A stretch of 22,074 nucleotides of DNA. Source: a virus. Made by a program: the position numbers and the translations under genes. This document shows, piece by piece, positions 1 through 18,968 of the stretch. The stretch's first letter is position 1; every line of letters starts with the position of its first letter. The notes beneath the pieces are model-generated. The model saw nothing but the letters and a program-made list of their open reading frames with translations. It made no database searches and was not told the origin of the DNA. The stretch covers positions 1-22,074 of the IMG/VR virus record IMGVR_UViG_3300048586_000622. The stretch is one strand, 5' to 3'.

Positions 1-312
1 AACAAATTTTCACCGGAAGTCCGCCAACGCGCCATCCGTATGGTGCTGGATCACGAGGCAGAGCATCCGTCGCGGTGGGCAGCCGTTTCATCTATTGCGG
101 GCAAGATCGGTTGCTCGCCAGCCACGCTGCATGAATGGGTGAAGAAGACCGAGGTCGACAGCGGCAAACGAGCAGGCCTGCCGAGCGACGCGGCCGAGAA
201 GATGAAGGCTCTGGAGCGGGAGAACCGCGAGCTTCGTCAGGCCAACGAGATTTTGCGTAAGGCGTCTGCTTATTTCGCGATGGCGGAGCTCGACCGCCCC
301 TTCAAACGATGA
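1..312 (+). CDS. IS3-family transposase OrfA (partial, 5' end missing)
   Basis: The frame is open from base 1, so the true start lies upstream. The product is the DNA-binding half of an IS3-family transposase. It has an N-terminal helix-turn-helix (around [15 protein letters not shown]) followed by a leucine-zipper-like helix ([21 protein letters not shown]) typical of OrfA, which binds the terminal repeats and allows multimer formation. The stop TGA at 310-312 overlaps the ATG of OrfB in an ATGA. In this family OrfA and OrfB are usually joined by programmed -1 frameshifting to give the active OrfAB. I did not identify a definite slippery site, though AAAC lies in the last codons (304-307). 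Confidence 0.9.
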
Positions 313-1214
313 TCTCGTTCATTGACGAACACCGTGGCGTGTTCGGGGTCGAGCCGATCTGCAGGCTTTTGCCGATTGCCCCGTCAACCTACTACGAGAA
401 CGTCGCCAAGCGCCTGGACGTGGATCGCCTGTCGACCCGCGCCCGCAGCGATATCGGCCTGAAGATCGAGATACGCCGGGTGTTCAATGAGAACTTCCAG
501 GTCTATGGCGTGCGCAAGGTCTGGCGGCAATTGCAGCGGGAGGGCTTCGACATCGCCCGCTGCACTGTCGCTCGGCTTATGAGGGTGATGGGGCTGCAAG
601 GCATCATTCGTGGCAAACCGATCCGCACGACGATCAGTGACAAGACCGGCCCATGCCCGCTCGACCGGGTGAACCGGCACTTCTTCGCGCCTGCGCCGAA
701 CATGCTCTGGCTTTCTGATTTCACGTATGTTGCGACCTGGCAGGGCTTCGTTTACGTCGCGTTCGTAATCGATGCCTTTGCTCGCCGCATCGTCGGTTGG
801 CGGGCAAGTCGGACTGCCCATGCGGGTTTCGTTCTCGATGCACTCGATCAGGCGCTTCATGATCGGCGGCCCGTGCACCGTGGTGGACTGGTCCACCATT
901 CCGACCGCGGATCGCAATATGTGTCCATTCGCTATTCCGAACGGCTAGCGGAAGCGGGCATCGAGCCGTCTGTCGGAAGTGTCGGCGACAGCTATGACAA
1001 CGCTCTCGCCGAAACGATCAATGGTCTTTACAAGGCCGAGGTCATCCATCGGCGAGGACCGTGGCGAACCTTCGAAGCCGTGGAGTTCGCCACTTTGGAA
1101 TGGGTCGACTGGTTCAATAACCGCCGCCTTCTGGAGCCCATCGGCAACATACCGCCAGCCGAAGCCGAAGAACGATATTACGCCATGCTGGACGCACCGG
1201 CCGTGGCCGCTTAA
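309..1214 (+). CDS. IS3-family transposase OrfB, DDE catalytic domain
   Basis: This 301-aa protein is the catalytic subunit of an IS3-family transposase (integrase core, rve superfamily), which cuts and joins DNA at the element ends. The N-terminal part (residues 1-100) has the HTH_21-like region with the [10 protein letters not shown] motif. The DDE triad is visible as D137 (WLSDFTYV), D199 (HHSDRGSQY) and E235 ([12 protein letters not shown]), with the usual lysine seven residues after the glutamate. Length and motifs match intact family members. It overlaps OrfA by four bases. The end at 1214 lies about 40 bases inside the probable right end of the element. Confidence 0.93.
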
Positions 1215-1226
1215 CTTAAATGAAAT

Positions 1227-1253
1227 GGCCTCCGGCAAACCCGGCGCGGTTCA
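1227..1253 (+). repeat. Probable right terminal inverted repeat of the IS3 element
   Basis: The GC-rich segment after the OrfB stop ends in GCGGTTCA. Read on the opposite strand it begins TGAACCGCGCCGGGTTTGCC, which has the TG start expected of IS3-family termini. The left partner is not in the window, so the exact inner boundary is inferred. Confidence 0.5.
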
Positions 1254-1349: not shown

Positions 1350-2117
1350 TCAAAAGCGTCGACGACTAGGCCCACGTTGGGCCAGCAGTGTCTCAAGCTC
1401 CAACAATCGACGACGGTTCTCTGCACTGTGCGATTCAAACCCGCGCAGATGTTCCCCATTCATATAGTGTCCAATTACTCCGCTCTTCAATACCGGCATA
1501 AAGGACACCTTCCCCAGCTGAAAGACCAAATGCCAGAGGAGGTCGAAATTGGACGCAAGCCCGAATGCAGTAAAATCCACCTCTCCGAAATCGAGGAAGA
1601 CCTTGCAGCGACTTCCAGTCCACCGTTGTACTATCGCGGGAGCTTTTGCAGTAGGCATCCACCATGCGCGAAGCTCAGCAAAAAAATCTGGCTCAGCACT
1701 AAAAACAGCGCGGCGGAAAGCTTCGGCATCTCGCTTAAGCCTAGTTCCACTCACGATCCAAGCCATTTGCGGGCGATAGAAAGCCTCCCGTGAAGCCAAT
1801 TCATCCGGGTGTAGAGCTGAGTATTGAAATTCAATGACTTCGCCGCTGGGGGTCTTGATATCGGCAATGTGGACCTCCCCGCTATCAGCGAGGTGACGCA
1901 CTTCCTGCCACTCCTTAGGAAACTTGTCTTTCCAGCCCCGGTGCCATTCCGTTTCCGGCTCTCACCAGTGGTCACACTCAAGGCGACCTTTATGGGCCCA
2001 ATGATGAAGTTTCTTAGCCCCACATTTTGCGATCATTGGCGATCCGCAACCGATGCAAGCACCTAGCAGTTTCGGGGTTGCTTCCTGACGGACTCCGTCT
2101 ACCAAGGCATATTTCAT
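1350..2117 (-). pseudogene. CoiA-like nuclease gene interrupted by a TGA nonsense codon
   Basis: Read leftwards from the ATG at 2117, the frame encodes a protein of about 255 aa resembling the competence CoiA-like family. It has an N-terminal zinc-finger-like part (CIGCG at 21-25, then KCGAKKLHHWAHK) and a PD-(D/E)XK-type nuclease core: E-x-E-W-H near residues 55-59, HIADIK, and IEFQYS carrying the ExQ signature. Codon 52 is TGA (bases 1964-1962), exactly where homologues would be expected to have the second W of WWEPETEWH, so a TGG to TGA change is the simplest cause. The rest of the frame stays open to the stop at 1350, which suggests a recent event or a sequencing error. A shorter product could restart at the ATG at 1901 but would lack the zinc finger and the first catalytic motif. 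Assignment is by recognised motifs only. Confidence 0.75.
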
Positions 2118-2200
2118 CCTACGCTCCAAGTGCCTTTAGCTGTGCCATCATCTACAAAGTAAACGGCAATTGTATAGGAACTTAGATACGCCAGGCAGGG

Positions 2201-2353
2201 ATACGTAAATGTGCAATATGGGAGTGGGAAAGCAAACAAATACGGATTCTGCATCCCCGACGCTCCATTCAGTTGCACTGTGATTTGTTCACGATCTGAT
2301 CGAAATCCGTAAATGTTCTATATGGGAGTGGGGAGCCAAACATTTACGGATTT
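2201..2353. repeat. Pair of 49-bp imperfect direct repeats
   Basis: Copy 1 (2201-2249) and copy 2 (2305-2353) agree at 40 of 49 positions by direct comparison and start 104 bases apart. Both contain the shared block ATATGGGAGTGGG, and both begin with a TA/TC-CGTAAATGT arm and end with a TACGGATT arm. In copy 2 the two arms are exact inverted complements; in copy 1 the symmetry is degraded. They lie on the 3' side of polB. Confidence 0.85.
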
Positions 2354-2354: not shown

Positions 2355-2392
2355 ACCTTTCCATCATCGCCAACGGTAGGGGAAGGCGTGGG

Positions 2393-2461
2393 AAAAACTC
2401 TAAAATCGATGAGAAAAACTCACCTCATGCAGCAGCCTTCTCGGGCGATTTTAGAGTTTTT
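2393..2461. repeat. Perfect 16-bp inverted repeat overlapping the polB 3' end
   Basis: AAAAACTCTAAAATCG at 2393-2408 and CGATTTTAGAGTTTTT at 2446-2461 are exact inverted complements separated by 37 bases. The right arm lies in the last codons of the polymerase gene (K-T-L-K-S), so the hairpin would form across its stop codon in the leftward transcript. It could act in transcription termination or mRNA protection. The transcript after the hairpin continues CCCACGCC rather than with a U-tract, apart from the Ts inside the arm. Confidence 0.75.
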
Positions 2462-5103
2462 TGCAGGGCTTCTCCCGGGATAAACAACTCAATTTCTAAC
2501 TCTGGATAAAACTCTGCCCGCAACTTCATCAATGCTTCGATGACCCTATCGGTATCCGGCGTGCGATGCGGCTCGAACGGCTTTCTCTTGCCGTTGTCGA
2601 TATCGCTGATTTTGCACGGTATACCGCAACTCACCAGAGCGTTAATGAAATCCGCATGCTTCAATTTCAGGTTACTACGGATGAGATCGAATCCTGCCTG
2701 ATGTTGCTGATAAGCCCGGGTTAGGTCCTCTCGAAGCCTTTTGATATCCCCATCAGCTTGCCGCAGATATTTCTTGGCTCTATCTCCAAGAGAATCCTTG
2801 GATGTGCGGTACGTCGTGAACGCGCTGTAATCCTTGAGTGATTTCAGAACACGAGGGGATTTCTTGTTGTAGCTTTCCCAGTATTCGCGCACGAGGTTGA
2901 ATTCTGTAACATCCTCGACCGGCCGCGTTTCAAATGTGAGATGTGTGTGCTGCCCACCTTCAAATTCAAAGGTAGTATCGCGTGCATTTGCGGGTGTTCT
3001 TTTCCAGTCAAATTCCATTGAAAGACGTTTGGTCACTGAACGAAATACGAAATCGGTTTCGCCACGCAGCATTTCTTTGATGCCGACGCCTGATTTGTAC
3101 TCGAATTTCTGATCGGGATAGCGGTTTAGGAACAGGCGTAGCGTCTGTTGGTTCTCTTCAAATGGATCATTGAGCGGATTTGTCTTGATACCCCCTTTTT
3201 GCAAGACGATTCCGTTGTCACCATCACCCATTTTCAACGTTGCCGCGCCGCGGGTTCGCCAGCCGACAGGTTGGCGAACTGTATGCTTGATCTCCAATGG
3301 ATTGCTGTTGTCGAGATGACGACGAGTTGCTCGAAACGATTTGAACAACTCACCGCTGGTAGCCGTTTCGATATCTTGGTCGCTGGCATTTGAGAGGAAG
3401 CCATCGGTTGTCACGCTGAAAACATGTACATGTTCGGCAAAGCCGTTGAGAATTTCACCGAGGACCGCCCTTGTATATGACGTGATGAATGATGCGAAAT
3501 ATGGCTGTGTGATCTTGCTCGGCGGAAGCGCTTCCATTCCATCGTCTTGTAGGTTGTATACCCGCTTTTCGCGCAGGCCCTGTGCCGTCTTTCCGTAAGT
3601 GCTGTTTCCCACCTCTTTCCAGAACAGGTTGTCAAAAGTCCCCTTCGGATGCGCCATGCGCTTTTCGATGCTGGTCTTGATGAAGTCCCTGAAAGCCGGA
3701 TGATGGCGATTGGTGGGAACATGTACACCCTTACGGAATGTCAATCGTGCACCGAGCTTCTTGGCCAGGTACAGCTCTGGCGCTGCGCACTTCGAATTGC
3801 CTTTGCGAGGAAAAATAATCCCATTGGCCGTGCGAACAGGCAGTGTCGGAAAGCGTACAGACTGCGGGAATTCGAAATCCACCGAGAAGAAGCTGAGATC
3901 GTGCGGCCCGACGTCATCAAGCGCTGTCAGATTGGTGATGTTATCCCAGTCAGGCATGCCGATTAATGACATTGCCGTCGTGTATGCCGAACTGAGGTCG
4001 TGATCCCGCCACTCTCCTTCATCCGCAATGCCGAAAATGAACTGCTCGTTCCGGCCGCCGTGGTAGGTCTCCGTTATGAACGCCTCGTTGAAATACGCTT
4101 CCTCCTTCAGCGGCGTCACGGTCTTGGTTTTGAAATAGCCGTGCTTCTTGCTGAAGATTTTCTCTTTGACGGTATCGCGTCCCAAGATTTGATTGCTGTC
4201 CAACCCTTTTTGTTGCCATCCCTGAAGCAGGAGTTTTGTCCCAAAGGAGGTTAAGGTTGCCGGCATTTTGAACGATGCGAAAAGCGTCTGGCTTTGCTGA
4301 ATGATACGCTCTGCAAAGCGTACGCACACCTGAGCATCACGGATTGCATACTCGCGGAAATCGCTCCATCGCTCCCTACGAAAGCGCGCCATGTTCTCCT
4401 TGATTTCCCTGTCTTCCTGCTGGGTTTTGCCGAGTTGAATCTTCGGGAAGCCAAGAAGATCGCCGATACCTGCCAAGGATTTCGCGTTGCTCGGCGCAAG
4501 CAGAATGGTATCGCGGACAAGGACGCTGAACTCTGCAATCGCTGTATCAGCCTCGCCAAACTTTACGGAAATTGCGCTGTCGATGCTGACGAATGTGCTT
4601 CTGACGTTGGAAGTCAGCCGAGCATTGTCCTTGAAGTCGCTGAATGCGGGAAAGTCCGCCCGGATAAAATGGCCGAGGAGGTAGATGGAATTTGGCAGCT
4701 TCAGATCGGGAAATTTCTCTATCAGTGAACCGATCGCAAAGCCCACAAACTCGGTGAGGGTCAAGCGCTGATCCGCATCGGGAATAATAATCCCGTCAGC
4801 TTCAGGTGCGTCGGCCTGTACGTCTTTGGTGATCAGCTTGATTGAAAACTGGTAGGAAAGAAGCTCGTTTTTTGCACCTGCTTCAATGGTGCTCTCCAGT
4901 TCGTTGTCAGCTACCGACTGATATTCGGTGTCAAAACCGATGAGGAGATGAGCGCTTGGCTCTTTCTTTCGCCGTTGTTTTTTTCCGGCGACAGGGGGCT
5001 CAGAAATGTTCTGGCTTTGAATGGTGACAGTTTTTGTTCTGCCGCCGTGATCGTCAGGTTCGATCTTAAAGGTGAATTCGTTCGCAAGCGTGGACTTATG
5101 CAT
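2425..5103 (-). CDS. Family B DNA polymerase, probable primer-independent (piPolB) type
   Basis: This 892-aa protein is a replicative family B DNA polymerase of the viral/organellar group (DNA_pol_B_2). The proofreading domain shows Exo I GFDTEY (56-61), Exo II GHFIRADF (144-151) and Exo III YAIRDAQ (252-258). Polymerase motif A is HDLSSAY (D369), motif B is KEVGNSTYGK (496-505) and motif C is VTTDGF (D567). All catalytic acids appear present. Protein-primed phage enzymes of the phi29 type are near 575 aa, whereas bacterial piPolBs are near 850-900 aa. The length, the lack of a visible terminal-protein gene and the divergent neighbouring tyrosine recombinase together suggest a pipolin polymerase, which can start synthesis without an external primer. 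The start is set by AAAGGGAG seven bases before the ATG at 5103. Family B is certain; the piPolB subgroup is inferred. Confidence 0.93.
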   Translation of the reverse strand: MHKSTLANEFTFKIEPDDHGGRTKTVTIQSQNISEPPVAGKKQRRKKEPSAHLLIGFDTEYQSVADNELESTIEAGAKNELLSYQFSIKLITKDVQADAPEADGIIIPDADQRLTLTEFVGFAIGSLIEKFPDLKLPNSIYLLGHFIRADFPAFSDFKDNARLTSNVRSTFVSIDSAISVKFGEADTAIAEFSVLVRDTILLAPSNAKSLAGIGDLLGFPKIQLGKTQQEDREIKENMARFRRERWSDFREYAIRDAQVCVRFAERIIQQSQTLFASFKMPATLTSFGTKLLLQGWQQKGLDSNQILGRDTVKEKIFSKKHGYFKTKTVTPLKEEAYFNEAFITETYHGGRNEQFIFGIADEGEWRDHDLSSAYTTAMSLIGMPDWDNITNLTALDDVGPHDLSFFSVDFEFPQSVRFPTLPVRTANGIIFPRKGNSKCAAPELYLAKKLGARLTFRKGVHVPTNRHHPAFRDFIKTSIEKRMAHPKGTFDNLFWKEVGNSTYGKTAQGLREKRVYNLQDDGMEALPPSKITQPYFASFITSYTRAVLGEILNGFAEHVHVFSVTTDGFLSNASDQDIETATSGELFKSFRATRRHLDNSNPLEIKHTVRQPVGWRTRGAATLKMGDGDNGIVLQKGGIKTNPLNDPFEENQQTLRLFLNRYPDQKFEYKSGVGIKEMLRGETDFVFRSVTKRLSMEFDWKRTPANARDTTFEFEGGQHTHLTFETRPVEDVTEFNLVREYWESYNKKSPRVLKSLKDYSAFTTYRTSKDSLGDRAKKYLRQADGDIKRLREDLTRAYQQHQAGFDLIRSNLKLKHADFINALVSCGIPCKISDIDNGKRKPFEPHRTPDTDRVIEALMKLRAEFYPELEIELFIPGEALQKTLKSPEKAAA

Positions 5104-5246
5104 CTACTCCCTTTCTAGAGTTGACCACATCGAGGTGTGGGGAGCGGCGATATAATCCTAAAGGTCTCCTAATGCAAGTTCGCGTTGTGGCGTTGAGCAA
5201 TGCCCTGCTTCGGCGGGACAATCCCGCTGTTACGAAAAGGGAGCCT
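5104..5246. promoter_or_regulatory. Divergent promoter region between polB and the integrase gene
   Basis: The two genes start back to back. Rightwards, TATAAT at 5151-5156 is a consensus -10 for the integrase; its best-placed -35 is weak (the TTGACC at 5121-5126 is 24 bases away, too far for a standard spacer). Leftwards, AAAGGGAG precedes the polB ATG, and ATTATA on the minus strand overlaps the same -10. The near-palindrome CCACATCGAGGTGTGG (5125-5140) lies between the two starts and could be an operator controlling both genes. The integrase mRNA would have a leader of about 80 bases if transcription begins near 5163. Confidence 0.5.
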
Positions 5247-6335
5247 ATGTCGCTGGTAAAACGCGGAAATTCCAAGTTCTGGTATGTGCAGTTTCAGATC
5301 GATCATCGAACGATAGTCCGTTCGACAAAGACGACCGACCGCAAGGTTGCCGAACAGGTCGCGGCGAAGATTCGCGCTGATGTCCACGCTGAACTGCTGC
5401 TCGGCAAAAAGGAGCTGATCACGCTGGAGACGGCGCTTCGTCGGTTTGCGAACACGAAGGCTGGAACCGCGAACTACCGCAATCTGGAAAGCCAAATCAG
5501 GATCATTCTGAGGACTATCGACTGCTCGACTCCTCTGCCGAAGGTCAATTCCGACACGCTGGAACAGTTTCGGCAGAAGCGTTTATCCCAAGGGTGCGGA
5601 TCGCAGACGATCAAGCACGGAATGAACTGTTTGATGGGAGCAATCCGGCTTGCTCGAAAGGACGGTTATCAATGTCCGTCAATCGACGCCCCCTTGATTA
5701 GAACAGCAAATTCCAGAGTGCGGTATCTGAGTGTTGAGGAAGAGCGCCGCCTACTGCGCGAATTAGACCCTACACGCGTCACCAATGGTCTATCTGCTGA
5801 ACCCGCTCGTCGTGCTGATCGCCAGAAATGGATGCAGGACAATTATGATCTGGTCGTCATGCTGATCGACACCGGCGCGCGCTATAGCGAAGTCGCCAAT
5901 ATCGCATGGAAGGACATCGATCTTAACGGTGGCGAAATACGCTTATGGCGCTCTAAGGTTCAAAACGAGAGCGTGATCTATATGACAGACCGTGTGGAAA
6001 CGATTCTTCGCCGCCGCCGAAGGGAGAGCAACGGTCTGACCGTCTTTGCCAACAAGGCGGGGAAGAGGCGGGGATACTCGGCGATTGCCATCCGCAAGGC
6101 GTTCCGTCGCGCGGGTCTCGATGATTGCACGATCCATACGCTTCGGCATACGCACGCAACGCGCCTTGTTCAAAACGGGCTGTCCATTCAAGAGGTCAAG
6201 GCCGTGCTCGGTCACACCGATATCCGAACGACAATGCGATATGCCCATCTTGAGCAGGCTGTCGTTACCCGCAAAGCGCGTGACATCGTGAATGCCCTCA
6301 ACGCTGCCAATTTCTCTGCTGAAGGTAGAGCGTAA
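5247..6335 (+). CDS. Tyrosine recombinase / integrase (phage integrase family)
   Basis: This 362-aa site-specific recombinase would integrate and excise a mobile element. An N-terminal arm and SAM-like core-binding domain (about residues 55-145) precede a complete catalytic domain. R212 is in DTGARYSEV, K237 in RSKVQ, H297 and R300 in HTLRHTHATR, H323 in LGHTD, and the nucleophile Y332 in MRYAHL. The ATG at 5247 is chosen because AAGGGAG lies just upstream and because MSLVKRGNSKFWYVQF is a normal family start. A longer frame runs to 5121, but that start would overlap the promoter. It diverges from the polymerase gene, and together they form the probable mobile-element core. The last part of the protein looks intact. 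Confidence 0.93.
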   Translation: MSLVKRGNSKFWYVQFQIDHRTIVRSTKTTDRKVAEQVAAKIRADVHAELLLGKKELITLETALRRFANTKAGTANYRNLESQIRIILRTIDCSTPLPKVNSDTLEQFRQKRLSQGCGSQTIKHGMNCLMGAIRLARKDGYQCPSIDAPLIRTANSRVRYLSVEEERRLLRELDPTRVTNGLSAEPARRADRQKWMQDNYDLVVMLIDTGARYSEVANIAWKDIDLNGGEIRLWRSKVQNESVIYMTDRVETILRRRRRESNGLTVFANKAGKRRGYSAIAIRKAFRRAGLDDCTIHTLRHTHATRLVQNGLSIQEVKAVLGHTDIRTTMRYAHLEQAVVTRKARDIVNALNAANFSAEGRA

Positions 6336-6483: not shown

Positions 6484-7626
6484 TCAAAAAAGCCGAGAAG
6501 CCTGTCTCTGCAGAAATATCTCCATGCGAACAGAAATCCAAAAGGATGGAGAGCTGGAGGGGACACGACCGATTGCAGCTTCTTTAATTTGCTCGACGCC
6601 CCATGATCCAGATAACCCATCAAACTTTGAATCTGCCACAACGTCCGCCGCAACCGATGAATAATGGCTCGCGTACGTGGCCGCCTCTCTTTTTTCACGA
6701 TAGTAAAAGAAACGCCGATCGTTGGTCGGAAAGTCGATACGCGGCCTCCATCCTCCTCTAGCAAAGACAAGATCGTTGCGGATAGGGTTTATCGATCCGT
6801 AATCTCCATAGTATATCCCTGAGTTATCATTGATCTGTCGTATGATTTCTTCGTAAAGATAGGTTTCTTCAGCCCTGAATAGGCCATGATCCTCGCTGCC
6901 CAACTCTGTAACGTTGCTTGGGAAGGAGGTGGCAAGCACGACTATTTCAATTTTTGGAGTCAGCCCTCTAACCTGCTGGATGATTTTGCTGGTTCTAAGT
7001 GCGTGCAGAATTCCGGTTCCGGTACGTATAAACTCATGATCGATCACCAAAATGAAGCGGCGTCCTGAGGAAACATGCTGATTTATCTCTGAGGCCAAAA
7101 GCGTGATGTCGTAAAGAAAGTCTGTGTCGTGCAATACAGAGGCGCGGTATGCCACCGCACCAAACTTTGTCATTAGAGCATCAAGCTGATTCCGAACATT
7201 ATCTTTGTATTCGTCGGCGGTCTCATTATCTGCGGGATTTATAAGAAGCGTGGGAATAATGTTTTTCAACCCATCACAACGCATCTGCAAACAGAAATTC
7301 TGCCAGCGTGAGTAACCGCTATCTGAAATGGTCAACTCGCTGAGTTCTGCGCACGAGAGCGACGGTTCCCGCGTCATGTCGAGAATTGTGACACCACTAT
7401 CCGTGAAGTCACTCAAGGCGGAATCAATACTTTTCTGATAGTCAAAAATTCCTGGTGTGGAAGGCCATTGGTCCTCTGGAACTGCCTGTCCAGCCCTAGG
7501 TTTTTTCCGGCCACGGGTGAGCTCGATTATCGGGATTATGTCCCGCTTATGATGGTGGTTGAAGCTTCGCCAGCAACGTGTTTCAGATTGCGCGGTTTTA
7601 AAAAGCAAAAAATATTCGTTAGCCAT
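6484..7626 (-). CDS. Beta-family protein (T4 Beta-protein-like, PF14350 type)
   Basis: This 380-aa cytoplasmic protein resembles the Beta family named after a phage T4 protein. It has the N-terminal pattern of a short strand, then KRDIIPIIELTRGRKK, a central region with LVIDHEFI, and a C-terminal W-G-V-E-Q-I-K-x-A followed by ISVRMEIFLQ that typically closes these proteins. No enzymatic activity is established for the family, and members often occur in defence islands and prophages. It is the last gene of a three-gene leftward operon: its ATG at 7626 follows the stop of the metallopeptidase gene after a single base, so translational coupling is likely. The pairing with an ImmA/IrrE-type protease suggests a role in sensing or immunity, but this is inference. 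Confidence 0.72.
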   Translation of the reverse strand: MANEYFLLFKTAQSETRCWRSFNHHHKRDIIPIIELTRGRKKPRAGQAVPEDQWPSTPGIFDYQKSIDSALSDFTDSGVTILDMTREPSLSCAELSELTISDSGYSRWQNFCLQMRCDGLKNIIPTLLINPADNETADEYKDNVRNQLDALMTKFGAVAYRASVLHDTDFLYDITLLASEINQHVSSGRRFILVIDHEFIRTGTGILHALRTSKIIQQVRGLTPKIEIVVLATSFPSNVTELGSEDHGLFRAEETYLYEEIIRQINDNSGIYYGDYGSINPIRNDLVFARGGWRPRIDFPTNDRRFFYYREKREAATYASHYSSVAADVVADSKFDGLSGSWGVEQIKEAAIGRVPSSSPSFWISVRMEIFLQRQASRLF

Positions 7627-7627
7627 T

Positions 7628-8194
7628 CTAGCGCACTGCCCATCCTAGCTGGGAAGCCCGAACTCTGACTGCTTCCGGGGAAACATTGAAATTCGTGGCA
7701 ACGGCCCGGACTTCACCATTTGCACGCTTGATGAAATCAACGAACTCTTCTTCAGGCATCAGAATTTCGGCAGCAACCCTATTTGCTTGATATTCAATCG
7801 CGTTTCGCTCGTCATTTCGGAAGAGAATTCTCTCACCCTCGGGTTTAGTTCCGATATGCTCTCTATGTAACTGATAATGCGCATATTCATGCGCCATTGA
7901 GAATCTCTGGCGATTCTTATGATGACGAGAGTTTACTGCGATTTTAAAGCTATTATCGGCCAGCTTCATTATATAAGCGTCCGCGTCGCCAAGATCTTCA
8001 TACGCGAGTTCTAATTCAGGATTCTCTTTAATTGCCTCCTCGATACTCGTGCAGCCGTTCTTTATGAATTGCTTCCGCCGAAAATACTCTAGGATGCGTT
8101 CTGGGGTGTCGAGAGCGGTCGCGTCCAAATCCCTGTCGAACGTGACAGTTCCTAAAACAGAGGGGTCGATAGGTCTGTTGGGTCGCTTCTTCAT
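7628..8194 (-). CDS. ImmA/IrrE-type zinc metallopeptidase
   Basis: This 188-aa protein belongs to the ImmA/IrrE (COG2856) family, whose known members cleave XRE-type repressors to induce mobile elements or stress responses. The zinc motif HEYAH is at residues 102-106 inside FSMAHEYAHYQLH. The expected third ligand E134 stands in NAIEYQANRVAAEILMP, the conserved second helix. The C-terminal part (163-188) looks like a small helical domain, NFNVSPEAVRVRASQLGW, typical of the family. No XRE gene is directly adjacent in this operon; the nearest is at 10528-10791. Its ATG overlaps the TGA of the upstream membrane-protein gene in an ATGA, which supports co-translation. Confidence 0.9.
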   Translation of the reverse strand: MKKRPNRPIDPSVLGTVTFDRDLDATALDTPERILEYFRRKQFIKNGCTSIEEAIKENPELELAYEDLGDADAYIMKLADNSFKIAVNSRHHKNRQRFSMAHEYAHYQLHREHIGTKPEGERILFRNDERNAIEYQANRVAAEILMPEEEFVDFIKRANGEVRAVATNFNVSPEAVRVRASQLGWAVR

Positions 8195-8730
8195 TGTGTC
8201 GCAATTGTTCCCGGTATGTCGTAGCCGTCTTCTTCCAACACTGTAATGATCGTTTCCAGCCGTACTGCGAGTTCCCGTGTTCTCTGTTCGATCATCGTAT
8301 CTGCGAGTGCGCCTAGTTTGCCTTCAATGGAAATGACGGCAGCATTCGAAGCGAAATAACGCTCAACCTCGCCCTCCATCGATTCTTGAGCATGATGTCC
8401 CGCCGATATTCGAACAACGAGAAATGCAAGCGTTGCAAGTATCGCAAGGAAACCAATTAGGATGGTAATAATCGTCCCATAGAAAGTTGTGATAGCCGAT
8501 AGGTATTCCCCCGAATCCCATGCTTTGTCGAAGAAGCAATAGTGAAATTTTCCATCAACCCCGCAGGTCGCGTTTTTCACGAAGTCTATATCGACGAAGA
8601 GATATAAAATGAGGACTATTGCAAGCGTGGCAACGATCCCGCCTACAACTCCGGCAAAAAAGCAAACCCAAAAAGCAGCTTTTTGAGTTTTAGCTGTAGG
8701 CCCATTTTGGCCTGGGGCAGATTTTGACAT
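8191..8730 (-). CDS. Two-helix membrane protein, first gene of the IrrE-Beta operon
   Basis: This 179-aa protein is not recognised as a named family. Two strong hydrophobic segments are visible at about residues 19-46 and 83-108. They are joined by a loop with two cysteines (C56 and C65) that could form a disulphide if the loop is periplasmic. The C-terminal 70 residues are charged and helical (ESMEGEVERYFASN, then IEQRTRELAVRLETIITVLEEDGYDIPG) and would be cytoplasmic. Such an arrangement fits a membrane anchor or effector carrying a cytoplasmic sensor helix. The gene overlaps the metallopeptidase by four bases. The ribosome-binding site before the ATG at 8730 is weak. Confidence 0.75.
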   Translation of the reverse strand: MSKSAPGQNGPTAKTQKAAFWVCFFAGVVGGIVATLAIVLILYLFVDIDFVKNATCGVDGKFHYCFFDKAWDSGEYLSAITTFYGTIITILIGFLAILATLAFLVVRISAGHHAQESMEGEVERYFASNAAVISIEGKLGALADTMIEQRTRELAVRLETIITVLEEDGYDIPGTIATQ

Positions 8731-9891: not shown

Positions 9892-10494
9892 ATGAATAAA
9901 ATGAAAAAATCTGAATATAGTGAGGCACTTGTTGGATGGGTGAGGGATTTAATCAAGGAAAGATATGAGGCTGAGAAAGCTGCATATCAAACATTTGAGA
10001 GTTATCTAATATCCAATTTCTACCTCGTAACACTGGTCTTTAATCAGAGTAAAATCTTACAAAAATATAAGGATGAAGATCAGGAGTATGCGGTTGGTGA
10101 GGTTGAATTAAAGCAATTCCGTCATCTGTATAATCTTGTTTGCCGAGAGGCATTAGGAAGAAAATATAATAAGGCTCAAAACTCTGAGAAGCCTCTGAGT
10201 ATTGCTTGCATTGATGCGAATGGGTCACGCTACTGGAGTGAAGTGGGTGACTTGGATAACATCCATATACATTCTGTCTGGCTTATGAATCCTTCAATGA
10301 AGGAGTGCTTCGATAGGGTTGTCAAGAATATGGTAGAGAAACCTAGCGGTGCAATTGATATCGAGAACGTTGATGTTAAGCGGTATACAGGTGAAGTAGA
10401 TAAAGTAATATCATATACAATGAAATTTGATGCATTCACTAGGGATGGTGACGATATAGGAGTGACATTTCATATACTTCCAACACCTGTTTGA
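9892..10494 (+). CDS. Putative HUH endonuclease / Rep-like protein (AT-rich gene)
   Basis: This 200-aa protein is not a family I can name, but the order of motifs resembles rolling-circle Rep and HUH transposase proteins. There is a hydrophobic strand FYLVTLVFN (43-51) as motif I, then HIHSVWL with the His-hydrophobe-His pair H125/H127 as motif II, then ISYTMK with Y175 and K178 spaced as Y-x-x-K as motif III. If correct it would nick single-stranded DNA and attach through Y175. The helix between motifs (FRHLYNLVCREALGRKY) fits the usual spacing. Base composition is clearly richer in A and T than the neighbours, indicating acquisition from another source. The start could be either of two in-frame ATGs (9892 or 9901), and neither has a strong ribosome-binding site. 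No partner gene is obvious. Confidence 0.55.
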   Translation: MNKMKKSEYSEALVGWVRDLIKERYEAEKAAYQTFESYLISNFYLVTLVFNQSKILQKYKDEDQEYAVGEVELKQFRHLYNLVCREALGRKYNKAQNSEKPLSIACIDANGSRYWSEVGDLDNIHIHSVWLMNPSMKECFDRVVKNMVEKPSGAIDIENVDVKRYTGEVDKVISYTMKFDAFTRDGDDIGVTFHILPTPV

Positions 10495-10527: not shown

Positions 10528-10791
10528 TTATTTTGATTTTCGCCGCCCCGGTCTAAGCGGTGATGGCTTGCTCTCACTGTCTGCTGGCTGAATGAACAGC
10601 TGGGAAATGTGCACTTCGAGTGCATTGGCCAATCGGGCGAGGATTGCAACAGTTGGGTTGCGTTTCCCTCTTTCCAGATACCCCACATACGCTCGTTCGA
10701 CCTCGGCGATCAAAGCCAAATCGTCCTGAGAAATTTTGCGTTCAACACGCAACCTCCTGAGATTCCAGCCGACTAGCTCTTGCACTTCCAT
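10528..10791 (-). CDS. XRE-family helix-turn-helix regulator
   Basis: This 87-aa DNA-binding protein of Cro/C1 type has the complete five-helix fold: NLRRLRVERKISQDDLALIAEVERAYVGYLERGKRNPTV (about residues 9-47) followed by ILARLANALEV. The recognition helix is around VERAYVGYLERG. The C-terminal tail is short and basic (RPGRRKSK). The ATG at 10791 is preferred; an in-frame TTG lies two codons upstream. It faces the HUH-like gene and is divergent from the zinc-ribbon gene at 10887. It may repress its own promoter and could be a target for the ImmA/IrrE-type protease in the same region, but that link is speculative. Confidence 0.88.
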   Translation of the reverse strand: MEVQELVGWNLRRLRVERKISQDDLALIAEVERAYVGYLERGKRNPTVAILARLANALEVHISQLFIQPADSESKPSPLRPGRRKSK

Positions 10792-10886
10792 GTGCAACAG
10801 GAATCACTTGCGCTTGAACAAAACCACGTAATATAGGACCATAAATTGAAGGCGAGATTGCAGCTCGCTGTAACGTGGAGAACGAA

Positions 10887-11231
10887 ATGCAAGAGACCCC
10901 ATCGGTAGCGACAATCGAATGCCCCTACTGCTCGGAAGTGATCAATGCGAAGTCGAAGAAGTGCCGTCATTGCGGTGAAATTCTCGACCATCAGATGCGC
11001 GAAATTGAACTTCTAAAATCACAGCGTAACAGCCCGAACGTTTTCATGAATGCCGGGGGTGCAGCGGCGGCGGCTTCGTCCGCATCGTCTTCATCTTCGG
11101 GCGGGGAGGGGAATCTATTGCGCCGATTTCCGCATTGGATTCACATACTCATTACCATCGTGACAGGTGGTCTTTGGTTCCCGGTGTACCTGTTGATGTA
11201 TCTATTCAGGAACAAGCGGTATTACTATTGA
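10887..11231 (+). CDS. Zinc-ribbon membrane protein
   Basis: This 114-aa protein has an N-terminal zinc ribbon, CPYC...CRHC (residues 12-31), a helix, a low-complexity linker of Gly/Ala/Ser (AGGAAAAASSASSSSSGG) and one or two C-terminal hydrophobic segments (WIHILITIVTGGLWFPVYLLMYLF) ending in RNKRYYY. Short zinc-ribbon proteins with a membrane tail are widespread and mostly uncharacterised. The ATG at 10887 is chosen because GGAG stands six bases upstream; a GTG at 10875 is the alternative. The following gene starts 38 bases after its stop and probably shares the transcript. Confidence 0.72.
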   Translation: MQETPSVATIECPYCSEVINAKSKKCRHCGEILDHQMREIELLKSQRNSPNVFMNAGGAAAAASSASSSSSGGEGNLLRRFPHWIHILITIVTGGLWFPVYLLMYLFRNKRYYY

Positions 11232-11929: not shown

Positions 11930-12892
11930 ATGGTTTTACACAACGTAGTCAACGCAAGCCCCAAGCTCTCTCCCGTTCCTGATCTGATCGAGCACGTTGC
12001 GGGAGAGTTTGCTCCGGCGGTTATGGCAATCTGGGGAAACCGTGATGTTGGTGAGTATTTGATAGCAACATCCGCTCAGCGCCATGTCTGGCACGCAGCC
12101 CTTGCAGCGGGCGATCATGATTGCCTGCCAACTCGTAAATGGCTGACCGAAAACAGGCGAAAGGTGATCTTGAAGCGAGCCTACGGAAGCTATCCATCAG
12201 GTATGATTCGATTGCTTTCCAGGCTTGGTCCCCGTGCGGAAACGAAGGAATTCTATCGTGCTGCGTATGTGGCGATGAGCCGTGGGGATATGCTGACAAG
12301 CATATTGCAGCACTCGAAAACGATTGACCCTCACGTTGTTTTTGCAGTTGCCGAACTGCCAATAGATTTGGTCAGCGTTCGGATGGCCCGCCATTTGTTG
12401 CGAAGGGGGGCTTCTGCTTGTGAAATTGCTGAAATGTCCTGGCTGGTGAAGCTGGTTGTCGAAGTGTCAGGATCGGTGGCTATTCTGAATCTGGTGGCTA
12501 ATTCCAAGAACCCTGTAGTCACGGTGCGCAAGGCAATTACCCGTCTTTCGTTTCCCGCTCCACCGTGGAAGGCGGAGGGATTGATCCCGGTGCAATCGGC
12601 TGAAGAGCTTTCCGATATTGCTCGTCGTTTAGGGAACTGCCTGAGTGACCACGATATTTTCTATTCGTCTTGCCTCGATGTTCAGGCAGGAATTGCATTC
12701 TATTTCATCACTCGATCAGCCAAGCCGCTGCTGTTGAAGTTCACCAAGTTCGGTGGCGTTGGCTGGTATCTTGATGAATGTCGTGGCGAGGGGAACCGTC
12801 ATCCGACTGCGGAAGAGATGGAACGCATTGTCGGTGTTCATTCGCATATCGAGACTGTGTGGTACCGAAGGCTGAGCTATGAAATGCGGTAA
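11930..12892 (+). CDS. Hypothetical protein, 320 aa, PcfJ-like C-terminal resemblance
   Basis: I do not recognise this protein with confidence. It is mostly helical and basic in the first 200 residues (for example TRKWLTENRRKVILKRAYGSYP and RMARHLLRRGASACEIAEMSW). The C-terminal part has a more structured stretch, SAEELSDIARRLGNCLSDHD followed by AGIAFYFITRSAKPLLLKF and WYLDECRGEGNRHPTAEEM. It vaguely recalls the C-terminal NC-containing region of PcfJ-like proteins of conjugative and mobile elements. That resemblance is from memory and weak. No signal peptide or membrane segment is visible. The following exported-protein gene starts about 60 bases downstream in the same direction. Confidence 0.6.
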   Translation: MVLHNVVNASPKLSPVPDLIEHVAGEFAPAVMAIWGNRDVGEYLIATSAQRHVWHAALAAGDHDCLPTRKWLTENRRKVILKRAYGSYPSGMIRLLSRLGPRAETKEFYRAAYVAMSRGDMLTSILQHSKTIDPHVVFAVAELPIDLVSVRMARHLLRRGASACEIAEMSWLVKLVVEVSGSVAILNLVANSKNPVVTVRKAITRLSFPAPPWKAEGLIPVQSAEELSDIARRLGNCLSDHDIFYSSCLDVQAGIAFYFITRSAKPLLLKFTKFGGVGWYLDECRGEGNRHPTAEEMERIVGVHSHIETVWYRRLSYEMR

Positions 12893-12951
12893 GGGGACTC
12901 GGATTCCTCGCGGGAACCTCTAAGGTCGTGACCACAAGGGAAGAATATGAG

Positions 12952-13551
12952 GTGTTCAAGATAGCCGCCAACCTGAACCGCTGGACCCTTACTATATTAA
13001 TGGCCGCAATCCCTGTTGCCGCCACGGCGTCCGATCGGGTGCCTATTGATGACGGAGCATATCTGGATAGGAAGGATTGCGATCTGGCCGAGCGCGGTGA
13101 ACTCGATTTGGTGTCATTCACGATTGGAAAGGCCGGGCGGGAAGTTTCATTTGAAGAAGCTGGATGTCTCGTCGCCAACGTGAAACCCGTCCGTGCAAAT
13201 CGATATGACATTGAACTGGATTGCCGGGAGTTTGAGGATGTGTACCGGCACCGGATGTTCCTTGACGTTATAGCCAAAGACCATATCCGGGTTGATGGTG
13301 ACGACCGTTATCTCTGCAAAAAGGGGTTCCTCGCTGACGGGCCTTCCGCCTCCGACCCTGCTGCATCGGTGAATGCTCTCATCGAGAAATGGGAAGGGCT
13401 AAACGAGAATTGCCGTGGTGGAAGCGGTGATGATCCCAGTACAATAAAAGAATGTAATCAAAGGACCGGAGTTTCCGAGCGCTTGGAAGCTCTCGGATAT
13501 TGCTATGGCGGCGAAGCTACTGTCACATCGGAATGGAGGAGGTGTGAATAA
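12952..13551 (+). CDS. Probable periplasmic protein, cysteine-containing, unknown family
   Basis: This product of about 199 aa has a clear signal peptide: a basic start (FKIAANLNR), a hydrophobic core (WTLTILMAAIPVAA) and an A-T-A-S-D cleavage region. The mature part has an N-terminal domain (VPIDDGAYLDRKDCDLAERGELDLVSF) with several cysteines, and a C-terminal tail with the pattern NENCRGG...KECNQR...LGYCYGG...WRRCE that suggests two disulphides. Such a C-terminal tail recurs in small proteobacterial periplasmic proteins. I favour the GTG at 12952 because AAGGGAAG lies eight bases upstream and gives a standard signal peptide; a GTG at 12928 would add eight residues. Confidence 0.6.
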   Translation: MFKIAANLNRWTLTILMAAIPVAATASDRVPIDDGAYLDRKDCDLAERGELDLVSFTIGKAGREVSFEEAGCLVANVKPVRANRYDIELDCREFEDVYRHRMFLDVIAKDHIRVDGDDRYLCKKGFLADGPSASDPAASVNALIEKWEGLNENCRGGSGDDPSTIKECNQRTGVSERLEALGYCYGGEATVTSEWRRCE

Positions 13552-13652
13552 CGCGGATCATCGAGCTCACCAAATCGCAGCGGTAGGCTGATGCCGCCTC
13601 GCGTTTTCAGTTCTGCCCCCACACTTTTGTTGCCTCGATCACCTTTCGGTAG

Positions 13653-13668
13653 GCAGGCCAAGGCCTGC
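13653..13668. repeat. Perfect 7-bp inverted repeat (GCAGGCC AA GGCCTGC)
   Basis: Two exact 7-base arms with a 2-base centre lie just downstream of the last accessory gene. Such a tight palindrome is more likely a protein-binding site or cruciform than an RNA terminator. Confidence 0.5.
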
Positions 13669-13790
13669 ATGAGTGACCGGACGCGATCAGTTGAACAACT
13701 GGCCGCAAATCGCTTGCTTCATGTCCCCGCTTCACGCTTCATTTTGTTCTTGAGCGATGGTCTAGGCTGGCATATCGCCGGCCTCACTTC

Positions 13791-13809
13791 ATCCGGCAAA
13801 ATGCCGGAT
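13791..13809. repeat. Hairpin ATCCGGCA-AAA-TGCCGGAT
   Basis: Eight exact base pairs surround a three-base loop. No U-tract follows. GTCGGCA motifs occur twice directly afterwards (13832-13853). Function is unknown; it lies in the gene-free stretch before cspA. Confidence 0.5.
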
Positions 13810-13915
13810 AGACCGGCACTATGCGGCTTTCTGTCGGCATATTGTCGGCAGGCAATCGGGGGCCTCGAATTGCCGATGAACGGGTGATCCGCGAGGCGAA
13901 TTGCCCGAGCTGGCG

Positions 13916-13968
13916 GGCGCTCATCATGCCGAGGCCGGTCGAGTGCCCGGAGGACCGGCTCGGTTGAC
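13916..13968 (+). repeat. Copy 1 of a 53-bp diverged repeat (gene-end fragment)
   Basis: This segment matches 15651-15703 base for base over the first 19 positions (GGCGCTCATCATGCCGAG and one more) and at most later positions. In one frame both copies read A-L-I-M-P-R then a short variable part, then D-R-L and a TGA stop, so both look like the 3' end of related genes. The copies flank the cspA-rpsU block. Confidence 0.6.
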
Positions 13969-14186
13969 CGTATCCCGTCGGGAATCTTCCACGGCTCCAG
14001 CTTCGGTCGTATGGGTAGTAATTGATGCCAGGATGCCGGAATCTGGTGGTGCTTTTATAAAGCTCATCGAAAAATCGCCCGTCTTCTAAAATTAATACCC
14101 AATATTATTTCTCGCTAGCCCGCTGTTTCCTTGAGAAAAAACAGGATTTTCCCTGCTGGGTTGTGCGATGGAATCCGTTATTTTTC

Positions 14187-14214
14187 TTGCAAAATACGTG
14201 GATTTCACTATATT
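14187..14214 (+). promoter_or_regulatory. Probable cspA promoter
   Basis: TTGCAA (14187-14192) and TATATT (14209-14214) are separated by 16 bases and precede cspA by about 125 bases, leaving a long untranslated leader as is usual for cold-shock genes. The match is good but not verified. Confidence 0.55.
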
Positions 14215-14294
14215 GCTGCTATCGAACTTTGCTTGTGACCTTTGTCTTCGCCCTAGCGGCCCGGTCGGATCTCCTCTCATCGTCGATTTATATG

Positions 14295-14333
14295 GGCTGC
14301 CAACCGGGCAGCCTCACCAACGGTTGAAAGGAA
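14295..14333 (+). promoter_or_regulatory. Structured cspA leader next to the ribosome-binding site
   Basis: GGCTGCC (14295-14301) pairs with GGCAGCC (14307-14313). The loop side CAACCG (14301-14306) is also an exact complement of CGGTTG (14321-14326), which directly touches the Shine-Dalgarno sequence AAAGGA (14327-14332). The two pairings could coexist as an H-type pseudoknot or alternate. Either would change access to the ribosome-binding site, which suggests temperature or ligand control. Confidence 0.45.
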
Positions 14334-14339
14334 ATCGTT

Positions 14340-14549
14340 ATGAATTCAGGCACTGTAAAGTGGTTCAACAGCACCAAGGGCTTCGGTTTCATCGCTCCCG
14401 ATGACGGCGCGACGGACGTGTTCGTCCATATTTCGGCGGTTGAGCGCGCCGGCCTTCGTTCCCTCGCCGAGGGCCAGAAGGTAAGCTTCGACATCGTGCA
14501 GGACCGCAAGTCCGGCAAGAGCTCCGCAGACAACCTGCGCGCTGCATAA
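14340..14549 (+). CDS. cspA: Cold-shock protein CspA family
   Basis: This 69-aa protein is a single cold-shock domain that binds single-stranded RNA and DNA and acts as an RNA chaperone. RNP1 is KGFGFIAP (residues 13-20) and RNP2 is VFVHISA (27-33); the opening [15 protein letters not shown] is nearly universal. The end [14 protein letters not shown] is typical of rhizobial members. The start is fixed by GAAAGGAAA seven bases before the ATG. A promoter about 125 bases upstream, a structured leader and a rho-independent terminator make it a single-gene unit. Rhizobia carry several csp genes, so the symbol denotes the family rather than a particular paralogue. Confidence 0.95.
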
Positions 14550-14615
14550 GGAATTGTCGTCCCTCTTCGCTGACCACGGATGTACTGGCAGCGTCGATGG
14601 CGAGCGACGGGAAGA

Positions 14616-14644
14616 GGTCGGGTCAATCCCGGCCTTTTTGTTTT
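14616..14644 (+). terminator. Rho-independent terminator of cspA
   Basis: GGTCGGG and CCCGGCC form a 7-bp stem with one G-T pair around the loop TCAAT, followed directly by TTTTTGTTTT. It lies about 65 bases after the cspA stop. An outer CCTCTTC/GAAGAGG pairing may extend the structure. Confidence 0.85.
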
Positions 14645-14677
14645 CAGACAAGATGCGATGTGCGGAAGGGACTGGCC

Positions 14678-14965
14678 ATGAGCCGGGTAATCTACGCTGT
14701 CGGCGATACCGTCAGGCTTAAGCCTGACCTGTTCCGCCGGGCAGAAGGTGGCGGAATTTGCCGGATCGCGGGAATTCTGCCTTCCGATCACGGAGAGGTG
14801 CAGTATCGCGTGCGTCTCGGCAACGAAACGTTCGAGCGCCGCATCCTGGCGAGCGATATCGACGCGCCGGAGGCAATGGCGGCGCGCTCCGCTGCGGGAT
14901 TGCATCCATCGGCGGGTGGCAAGGAGCCTTGGTTCAAGCCATCCACCATTCGGACCAGAAAGTAA
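14678..14965 (+). CDS. Conserved small hypothetical protein
   Basis: This 95-aa protein looks like small proteins found next to csp genes in rhizobia. Residues 5-50 (IYAVGDTVRLKPDLFRRAEGGGICRIAGILPSDHGEVQYRVRLGNETFERRI) have the pattern of a small beta-barrel, SH3-like domain, and ASDID follows. The function is unknown; an RNA- or ribosome-associated role is possible from the neighbours but not shown. The start at 14678 is preferred because the conserved part begins there and AAGGG lies about ten bases upstream; an upstream in-frame ATG at 14597 would overlap the cspA terminator. Confidence 0.75.
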   Translation: MSRVIYAVGDTVRLKPDLFRRAEGGGICRIAGILPSDHGEVQYRVRLGNETFERRILASDIDAPEAMAARSAAGLHPSAGGKEPWFKPSTIRTRK

Positions 14966-14976
14966 TCGAGTGATGT

Positions 14977-15000
14977 AGCGGCAAGGCCGCTCGGAAAGGA
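14977..15000 (+). promoter_or_regulatory. Hairpin and ribosome-binding site before rpsU
   Basis: AGCGGC-AAG-GCCGCT (14977-14991) is a perfect 6-bp hairpin ending four bases before AAAGGA (14995-15000). That Shine-Dalgarno sequence is six bases from the TTG start of rpsU. The closeness of the hairpin suggests an effect on initiation, and the TTG start itself probably lowers expression. Confidence 0.45.
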
Positions 15001-15006
15001 CATGAC

Positions 15007-15252
15007 TTGCAGGTTCTCGTACGGGACAACAATGTCGATCAGGCCCTCCGGGTCCTGAAGAAGAAAATGCAGCGCGAAGGGCTTTTTCGCGAGATGAAGG
15101 CGCGGAGCGCCTTTGAGAAGCCTTCCGAGAAGAGGGTGCGCGAGAAGGCCGAGGCCGTCAGGCGTGCCCGCAAGCTCGCCCGCAAGAAAGCACAGCGGGA
15201 GGGGCTGCTGCCGGCTCCGAAGAAGAAGCCCGTGAGCGCGCGTCGCGCCTGA
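15007..15252 (+). CDS. rpsU: 30S ribosomal protein S21
   Basis: This 81-aa basic protein is bS21 of the small ribosomal subunit, which helps mRNA binding at initiation. The opening [20 protein letters not shown], then [21 protein letters not shown] and the arginine/lysine-rich helix [18 protein letters not shown] match alphaproteobacterial S21 along the whole length. The start is TTG at 15007, supported by AAAGGA six bases upstream; an out-of-frame ATG at 15002 is not used. Alphaproteobacterial members usually have this extended C-terminal basic tail. It lies between two small conserved genes, an order familiar from rhizobia. Confidence 0.97.
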
Positions 15253-15285
15253 CGGTAGCGCGCTACGGAACAAGGGAGTGAACGA

Positions 15286-15486
15286 ATGACGGCGACCAAG
15301 CAGCAGTTTTTCAAGCCGACGAAGGTAAGCGCGGAGGCAAAATCTGCGCAGACCAATTCCATCGCAAGAGGGATCGTTGAGCAGGAGGCGGCAGCGCGGG
15401 AAAAGAAGACTGAAAAACTTCGTGCCCTGCGCATGGCCAGGGAGGCTGCCACTCCCGCTCCCCTGCCGGTGCTGAAACGGAAATAG
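15286..15486 (+). CDS. Conserved small hypothetical protein downstream of rpsU
   Basis: This 66-aa, highly basic and helical protein begins MTATKQQFFKPTKVSAEAKSA. Similar short proteins follow cold-shock/rpsU loci in rhizobia. The central helix SIARGIVEQEAAAREKKTEKLRALRMAREA is charged and could form a coiled coil or bind nucleic acid. GGGAGTG stands upstream of the ATG at 15286. The gap to rpsU is 33 bases, so it probably shares the transcript. Function unknown. Confidence 0.75.
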   Translation: MTATKQQFFKPTKVSAEAKSAQTNSIARGIVEQEAAAREKKTEKLRALRMAREAATPAPLPVLKRK

Positions 15487-15517
15487 AAATCGGTGTCCTG
15501 GAGGGGGCCTTCTTCTA

Positions 15518-15547
15518 TTGGCGGGGCCGTCCATGTCGGCCCGCCAA
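15518..15547. repeat. Strong hairpin after the rpsU block
   Basis: TTGGCGGGGCCG and CGGCCCGCCAA pair over 11 bases with one bulged G. No U-tract follows on the plus strand, so termination by this hairpin is uncertain. Confidence 0.5.
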
Positions 15548-15650
15548 GCGGTGATCCGTTAGCTCTGTGGTTGACATGTCGGTCTTGGCAAGCCGTGGTC
15601 AATCATCGGGCGATTTCTGGGTAAGGCGGCGAGCCGCCCGAAGCGCTGCA

Positions 15651-15703
15651 GGCGCTCATCATGCCGAGACTGATCGAACGCTCGGACGACCGGCTGGCTT
15701 GAC
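15651..15703 (+). repeat. Copy 2 of the 53-bp diverged repeat
   Basis: This is the partner of 13916-13968. In one frame it reads A-L-I-M-P-R-L-I-E-R-S-D-D-R-L-A and then TGA. No upstream start or conserved domain belongs to it here, so it is probably the end of a decayed gene. Confidence 0.6.
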
Positions 15704-15747
15704 ACATCTCGCGAACTGTTGAATGACTGCGGCCTCGGCGCTGCCCT

Positions 15748-15821
15748 GCGGGTATGATGTAATGGTAGCCTGTCAGCTTCCCAAGCTGAACGCGCGGGTT
15801 CGATTCCCGCTACCCGCTCCA
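15748..15821 (+). tRNA. tRNA-Gly (anticodon CCC)
   Basis: A full cloverleaf is visible. The acceptor arms GCGGGTA and TACCCGC pair over seven bases. The anticodon stem-loop is CAGCT-TCCCAAG type, with loop TTCCCAA and anticodon CCC. The T-arm is GCGGG-TTCGATT-CCCGC, and CCA is encoded at 15819-15821 after the discriminator T. It reads GGG codons. The remnant of an integrase gene ends about 50 bases beyond its 3' end, so this gene is the likely attachment site of the prophage that follows. Confidence 0.96.
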
Positions 15822-15871
15822 AAAAATTCAATGCCTTAGCAGTGGCGGCGTGCCACTCGTTTCACTTCATG

Positions 15872-16035: not shown

Positions 16036-16041
16036 CCGCGC

Positions 16042-17539: not shown

Positions 17540-17568
17540 ACCACCTCCACAACAGATAGGACATTCGC

Positions 17569-18032: not shown

Positions 18033-18037
18033 TCCCG

Positions 18038-18382: not shown

Positions 18383-18394
18383 GGAGAAACGATC

Positions 18395-18886: not shown

Positions 18887-18968
18887 TCCTTACAGATCGC
18901 TACAGACGGCTACAGGGGGCGGCTTTCGGGCCGCCTTCTCCTTTCCACCTTCCAAGAAAGCGAAAACC

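Follow-up and report, generated by a model that had tools for sequence, protein, structure and literature searches.

A pipolin of an alphaproteobacterial lineage at tRNA-Gly(CCC), with a conserved hairpin as a candidate start site of its DNA synthesis

What kind of element encodes a family B DNA polymerase back to back with a tyrosine recombinase, where is it integrated, and at which site might its DNA synthesis begin? These questions are raised by an IMG/VR virus record (IMGVR_UViG_3300048586_000622) of 22,074 bases, the whole of which was analysed and is referred to here as the window. The explanation that we favour overall (at a probability of roughly 0.78) is that the window carries a pipolin (i.e. 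an element with a primer-independent family B polymerase, piPolB, as its hallmark) of an alphaproteobacterial lineage, here in the DNA of a rhizobial soil bacterium, that this pipolin is located at a tRNA-Gly(CCC) gene, and that it may replicate by a scheme in which primer-free synthesis would start at or near a conserved hairpin. Within this explanation the pipolin identity is near certain, and the mechanism is put forward as a testable proposal.

The polymerase gene (2425..5103, minus strand) encodes 892 aa with a Pfam DNA_pol_B_2 match, and is separated by 17 bp, start to start, from a divergent and complete tyrosine recombinase of 404 aa (5121..6335, plus strand; Pfam Phage_integrase) that keeps the catalytic residues R..HxLRH..GH..Y, as the original prediction (which described a pipolin core with intact polymerase motifs) had stated. 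All six of these motifs are present (Exo I FDTEY, Exo II, Exo III YAIRDA, Pol A DLSSAYT, Pol B GNSTYGKTAQG, Pol C TTDG), but the word intact has to be amended for Pol C, which is without the first Asp of the usual DTD, as in known piPolBs. The loss of this residue has been named as a piPolB trait (PMC7544198), and motif C was found to read [TV]TDG in all 11 piPolB-like proteins compared and DTDS in all six pPolB/rPolB ones. The window protein shares 31% identity over 863 aa (E 1e-109) with the polymerase of the E. coli H10407 pipolin (866 aa, encoded in an island beside yecA where it adjoins a tyrosine recombinase), its next-best relatives being those of S. epidermidis pSE-12228-03 (26%) and then of Fusobacterium plasmids and pLME300. 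The 11 piPolB-like sequences formed one clade (99/99) in a tree built from the Pol A - Pol C region. Within it the window polymerase grouped with those of E. coli and G260 (98/96), and outside it fell the pPolBs of phi29, Cp-1, PRD1-type L17, GC1 and LCBv1. The protein thus clustered with the piPolBs of E. coli, Staphylococcus, Fusobacterium and Lactobacillus, apart from archaeal-virus pPolBs too, and its sole match among phage records was one weak archaeal-virus hit; a search of viral_contigs for the piPolB, as well as for the HUH-like protein and the hairpin described below, returned no match to any of them. The placement in a tree, which had been suggested as a check, therefore set the polymerase with piPolBs and away from protein-primed and phage enzymes, and since its motif C is also of the piPolB type, the pipolin identity survives the refutation test that had been proposed for it. 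Clade, motif C, resemblance to the H10407 polymerase and complete integrase together uphold the reading of a pipolin core; the comparisons support the assignment of the polymerase to piPolB, and primer-free synthesis is predicted for it from its relatives.

The same evidence bears on whether the element could be protein-primed, with a terminal-protein gene that went unrecognised. In favour of this stand the kinship of pPolB and piPolB, the poor conservation of terminal proteins and the presence in the window of several small open reading frames (ORFs) without a match; yet both the clade and the motif C of the polymerase are of the piPolB type, and its start is adjoined by the integrase, at the place where phi29, Cp-1 and PRD1-type phages have their terminal protein. 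No terminal-protein gene was seen beside the polymerase, in agreement with the earlier statement that none is visible, and its upstream neighbour is an integrase in L001-L003 and L054 as in the window. We consider protein priming very improbable.

As to where the element is integrated, the right end of the pipolin holds a whole tRNA-Gly(CCC) gene (15748..15821, plus strand), together with a right-hand attachment (att) repeat (15697..15785, plus strand) that covers the tRNA upstream region and the 5' half as far as the anticodon loop (AGCTTCCCAAG). The left att repeat is missing from the window because the contig starts inside a copy of an IS3-family element (1..1253, plus strand), which puts the actual left terminus of the pipolin on the far side of the contig break. 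Loci at this site are also present in G277 and G356, two genomes from the same host group. The window is 98% identical to G277 over 12608-15821, up to and including the final tRNA base, where the match stops. In both genomes the tRNA upstream region and 5' half occur once more, to the left, as attL, which ends ...CAGCTTCCCAAG and is succeeded by nearly identical element sequence (GCTGCCCGCTATGG / GCTACCCGCTATGG), and attR holds the whole tRNA. Of the two att direct repeats, the window thus has the right one; for the left one, the evidence comes from this tRNA in G277 and G356 alone. The duplicated 5' half therefore places the element at tRNA-Gly(CCC), with a crossover in the anticodon stem-loop, and the comparison with related strains at this site has supplied the target and the att repeats that the original prediction had left to be found. 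We regard it as likely that the integration was performed by the window integrase, whose orthologues (57-84% identical) lie beside piPolB in L001, L003, L004 and L054. The piPolB is cut at about residue 599 in G277 and lost in G356. Since other genomes hold 1.4 kb and 5.2 kb of different DNA between the same LacI-family gene and the tRNA, the site looks like a hotspot.

Several further traits of this site were observed. The LacI-family gene is intact to the left of it in G277 and G356, and the window has two copies of its 3' end (EALQALIMPRLIERSDDRLA*; 13895-13968 and 15628-15703), relics of repeated insertion there. The place of a block composed of cspA, an unknown gene and rpsU (window 14340-15252) relative to the pipolin varies: G356 has it outside the left repeat, the window and G277 on the element side; a cspA-like gene is also held by the hairpin-bearing Camelimonas contig (L102). 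In G277, the integrase C-terminus recurs as an incomplete duplicate by an IS21-type element (L031 7028-7408), a sign of two tandem related elements. The last 101 bases of the window (21974-22074) are the end of an insertion sequence (IS) of ~1.16 kb that is present twice in the G356 element, and as the IS3 copy (1-1253) forms the other extremity, the contig is bounded by IS repeats on both sides.

The remainder of the window (15822-22074) is a prophage unrelated to the pipolin, which starts right after the last tRNA-Gly base, has terminase genes from 16015 and is distantly similar to Rhizobium phage RHph_N2 and its relatives; it looks decayed, because its large terminase gene has an in-frame stop and appears to be without its C-terminal part. 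That the polymerase belongs to this prophage, and not to a separate element, might be suggested by the presence of both in one virus record, but the G277 homology stops at the last tRNA base, where the prophage begins, and such phage genes were not seen in related piPolB elements. Hence ownership by the prophage is hardly credible.

The close relatives of the window piPolB (83%) were found in Brucella grignonensis (L001), Rhizobiales AFS055504 (L002) and Paenochrobactrum gallinarii (L003), and more distant ones (54-56%) in Camelimonas fluminis (L004/G004), G282, G121 and G593. Window-type piPolBs are rare (6 of 395 genomes in the family sample, with one new one each in the order and class samples), and the window, L001-L003 and G593 all have integrase and piPolB head to head, both genes being present on the Camelimonas contig as well. 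The integration site is not constant among these relatives: comM is broken at codons 29-36 in L001, L002 and G282, and at about codon 212 in L003, and each of the four comM junctions has a large serine recombinase; the L001 element, bounded from comM piece to comM piece, measures about 14.2 kb. With tRNA-Gly and comM as targets, we argue that one core makes use of two integration modes. On the side, we observed that in AFS055504 (L002 15121-21833) the remaining comM is broken again, at codon 77, by an element starting with three successive recombinase-like genes, and that in Pseudosulfitobacter plasmids (L040; ~280 kb, 30 records) a piPolB is split by an IS66 insertion, with MobC/relaxase genes nearby.

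Where, then, might DNA synthesis of the element begin? Structured repeats had been reported on the 3' side of the polymerase, and two kinds were recovered there. The first is a 49-nt hairpin (2304..2352; AATCCGTAAATGTT-N21-AACATTTACGGATT), whose stem of 14 bp is perfect (none expected in shuffles) and whose loop bears an invariant CCCATAT on the minus strand; a second, degenerate copy (2200..2248) retains the loop motif, the two forming a repeated 48-nt unit (2201-2248 and 2305-2352). The second kind is an inverted repeat (2379..2475) with 30-nt arms (2379-2408 / 2446-2475), which overlaps the piPolB stop and occurs in L001, L002 and L003 too. The hairpin was found beside piPolB in the window, L001, L002, L003, G593 and G282 (at a distance of 10-113 nt in the window, L001, L003, G593 and G282), and a scan of 11 whole genomes with the hairpin pattern returned one copy each in G001, G002, G003, G004, G282 and G593, so that with the window the carriers total seven members of the lineage, intact or fragmented. 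Camelimonas scored positive in spite of having been left out when the pattern was made, and the reversed pattern gave no match across the 11 genomes. The whole-genome scan did not find the pattern in G277 and G356 (decayed elements), in G260 and G1146 (distant piPolBs), or in G121, where a degenerate form is present. Between distant members, pairwise identity amounts to 80-92% in the hairpin as against 33-48% (i.e. chance) in its flanks, with polymerases that are only 54-56% identical; the CCCATAT loop is invariant, the length is fixed at 49 nt, and the fold as single-stranded DNA has z values of -5 to -10. Moreover, the hairpin persists without the HUH gene (G593, G004) and without a nearby tyrosine integrase (G282). 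Because each of these two proteins is absent somewhere, piPolB is the sole tested protein common to all hairpin carriers, and we therefore propose the hairpin as a cis site of the polymerase. Its role as a candidate start site of element DNA synthesis is suggested tentatively, from sequence conservation and gene linkage.

Three other functions of the hairpin were considered and set aside. A terminator was rejected in view of the lack of a T-run, the 21-nt loop, the conserved sequence and the position upstream of piPolB in G282. A site of the tyrosine integrase is rejected for now, as G282 has the hairpin and no such gene in about 28 kb, and so is an exclusive target of the HUH protein, as G593 and G004 carry the hairpin without its gene.

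A fourth function, which we view as conceivable and which falls short of being probable, is that of a regulatory site of the piPolB gene, either as an mRNA structure or as an operator bound by a regulator in dimeric or tetrameric form. The short distance to piPolB and the dyad formed by the stem fit this function, and helix-turn-helix (HTH) regulators are encoded by several elements (in the window a Cro/C1-type one, 10528..10797, minus strand, also found in the G277, G356 and G121 elements). However, a location that is mostly 3' of piPolB but switches to 5' in G282 would be odd for one operator, no T-run follows the stem, half of the loop (CCCATAT) is invariant and asymmetric within a unit of fixed length, and the window-type HTH gene is not common to all hairpin carriers.

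A second candidate for a part in replication is a 200-aa protein (9892..10494, plus strand; HIHSVW ... SYTMK), a probable HUH nickase or Rep-like protein on the strength of its motifs. The pair HxH and YxxK is characteristic of HUH Rep/relaxase proteins. In this protein and its relatives T..F, HxH and YxxK are among the few invariant positions, which bears out the HUH-like gene of the original prediction, and 15 of 15 members of the wider family have HxH with YxxK, among them proteins encoded next to integrases in elements that have no piPolB. A strong HUH-like match was detected in four of the six piPolB genomes of the sample, and the co-occurrence with piPolB has a p of 2e-4 once the genomes that supplied the query are removed (uncorrected for relatedness), the value of 2e-7 obtained with them included being inflated because three of them supplied the query. 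In the G260 pipolin (L036 12633-13814) a different protein of 393 aa, which contains HLHGIVH and YALK and matches Rep_1 weakly, below the threshold, is encoded directly downstream of piPolB; as plasmid pipolins have relaxases (PMC9710591), a nickase beside piPolB looks like a recurring theme. A search of the plasmid collection found no relative of the 200-aa protein. Five loci (L078, L079, L080, L081 and L082) carry HUH-like relatives beside tyrosine integrases in elements without piPolB, and these relatives may form an unnamed family of Rep proteins of such elements.

The scheme that we propose for replication combines these components. By recombination between the two tRNA half-sites, the integrase would release the element as a circle. 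This circle would be copied by piPolB, which would begin at the hairpin or close to it and need neither a primer nor a terminal protein, the hairpin being presented as a single strand at the start of synthesis. Where present, the HUH protein may nick the element and release single strands (in a rolling-circle or mobilisation style), of which piPolB could make the second strand without a primase. A number of points weigh against this scheme. Nothing links the hairpin to replication over regulation, and its place varies, being mostly 3' of piPolB, 5' of it in G282 and 2.7 kb from the piPolB fragment in Camelimonas. The HUH assignment comes from motifs alone (the AlphaFold2 models of the HUH candidate and of piPolB, with pLDDT values of 37 and 34 from overly shallow alignments, were left unused), searches of the 200-aa protein against Pfam and PDB profiles gave no HUH match, and the existence of relatives in integrase elements without piPolB means that the association is not exclusive. 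Furthermore, a divergent terminal protein could escape homology detection, the contig does not reach the left end of the pipolin, so that a complete element is not demonstrated by the window on its own, and the tyrosine recombinase may not integrate everywhere, since four sister elements lie in comM with a serine recombinase. The polymerase might, alternatively, serve host DNA damage tolerance or repair and not the copying of the element, in keeping with the fact that excised pipolins were unseen in E. coli under standard growth (PMC7385651); the patchy distribution (6/395), the linkage to recombinases, the plasmid versions and the polymerase-linked cis element speak against such a role, which we deem unlikely.

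The remaining genes of the pipolin include an operon (6484-8730, minus strand) in which the IrrE/Beta module of the original prediction proved real: a Beta-protein family gene (6484..7626; beta 1.8e-39, PD-Lambda-2_C 5.5e-15) is accompanied by an IrrE/ImmA-type M78 metallopeptidase (7628..8194; CapP 2.9e-25, PD-Lambda-2_B-like) and by a predicted membrane protein of 179 aa (8191..8730), the third gene of the operon, which overlaps the start of the M78 gene. Compared with genes A, B and C of PD-Lambda-2, the operon matches C (5.5e-15) and, weakly and partially, B (1.6e-4), with no match to A, and judging by these matches it may at best be a PD-Lambda-2 relative; it is probably an anti-phage cargo. 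Other defence-like cargo (PDC-S46) is carried by L001, and a 2024 survey by the same group that has studied pipolins reportedly describes defence cargo. A zinc-ribbon membrane protein (10875..11231, plus strand) recurs in the G277, G356, G121, G003 and Camelimonas elements, and a 320-aa cargo protein (11930..12892, plus strand) is common to the window, G277 and G356. Between IS3 and the hairpin, an ORF with a weak CoiA nuclease-like match (1350..1901, minus strand) is either cargo or a later insert; beyond it, the L001 homology continues at 1254-1294.

Pipolins, their tRNA sites, the relaxases of plasmid forms and alphaproteobacterial members are already known from the parts of PMC7385651 and PMC9710591 consulted; these parts make no mention of the hairpin, of the HUH-like gene of integrated forms or of the comM/serine-recombinase form, and the biological role of piPolB is there described as still unclear (PMC9710591). 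A fixed hairpin linked to piPolB, together with an associated nickase, would offer a concrete candidate origin and substrate for this polymerase and allows one to ask whether a primer-free polymerase has a preferred natural start site; one core that switches between tRNA-Gly and comM shows how pipolins change target.

Among known systems, the protein-primed ones of the phi29/PRD1 type share the polymerase superfamily and the Exo and Pol motifs, but differ in motif C (DTDS), polymerase length (about 570 aa) and the adjoining terminal-protein gene, and the window protein falls outside their group. PD-Lambda-2 (PADLOC) resembles the cargo operon in its Beta-protein gene with a PD-Lambda-2_C match and its adjoining M78 peptidase gene, and differs in that the window match to B is weak and partial and the A gene is unrecognised. 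Alphaproteobacterial pipolins share host class and piPolB with the window element, as far as the consulted part of PMC9710591 (Fig. 3) displays them; as such members were already shown there, the alphaproteobacterial lineage of the original prediction stands, with the qualification that being alphaproteobacterial does not by itself make a pipolin unusual. The E. coli pipolins (H10407, 3-373-03_S1_C2; PMC7385651) are alike in the piPolB hallmark, tyrosine recombinases, tRNA integration with direct repeats, defence cargo and, in some strains, a prophage at the same tRNA site; their target is tRNA-Leu in place of tRNA-Gly(CCC), and the window element is set apart from them by its single divergent integrase, its HUH-like gene and its 49-nt hairpin, which was not found in the H10407 pipolin. 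The plasmid pipolins (S. epidermidis pSE-12228-03, L. fermentum pLME300, Fusobacterium) differ as circular plasmids without tRNA integration, with a relaxase in place of the 200-aa HUH protein; they are alike in having a piPolB (24-27% identity in aligned parts) and, near it, a relaxase gene, i.e. in the combination of piPolB and nickase.

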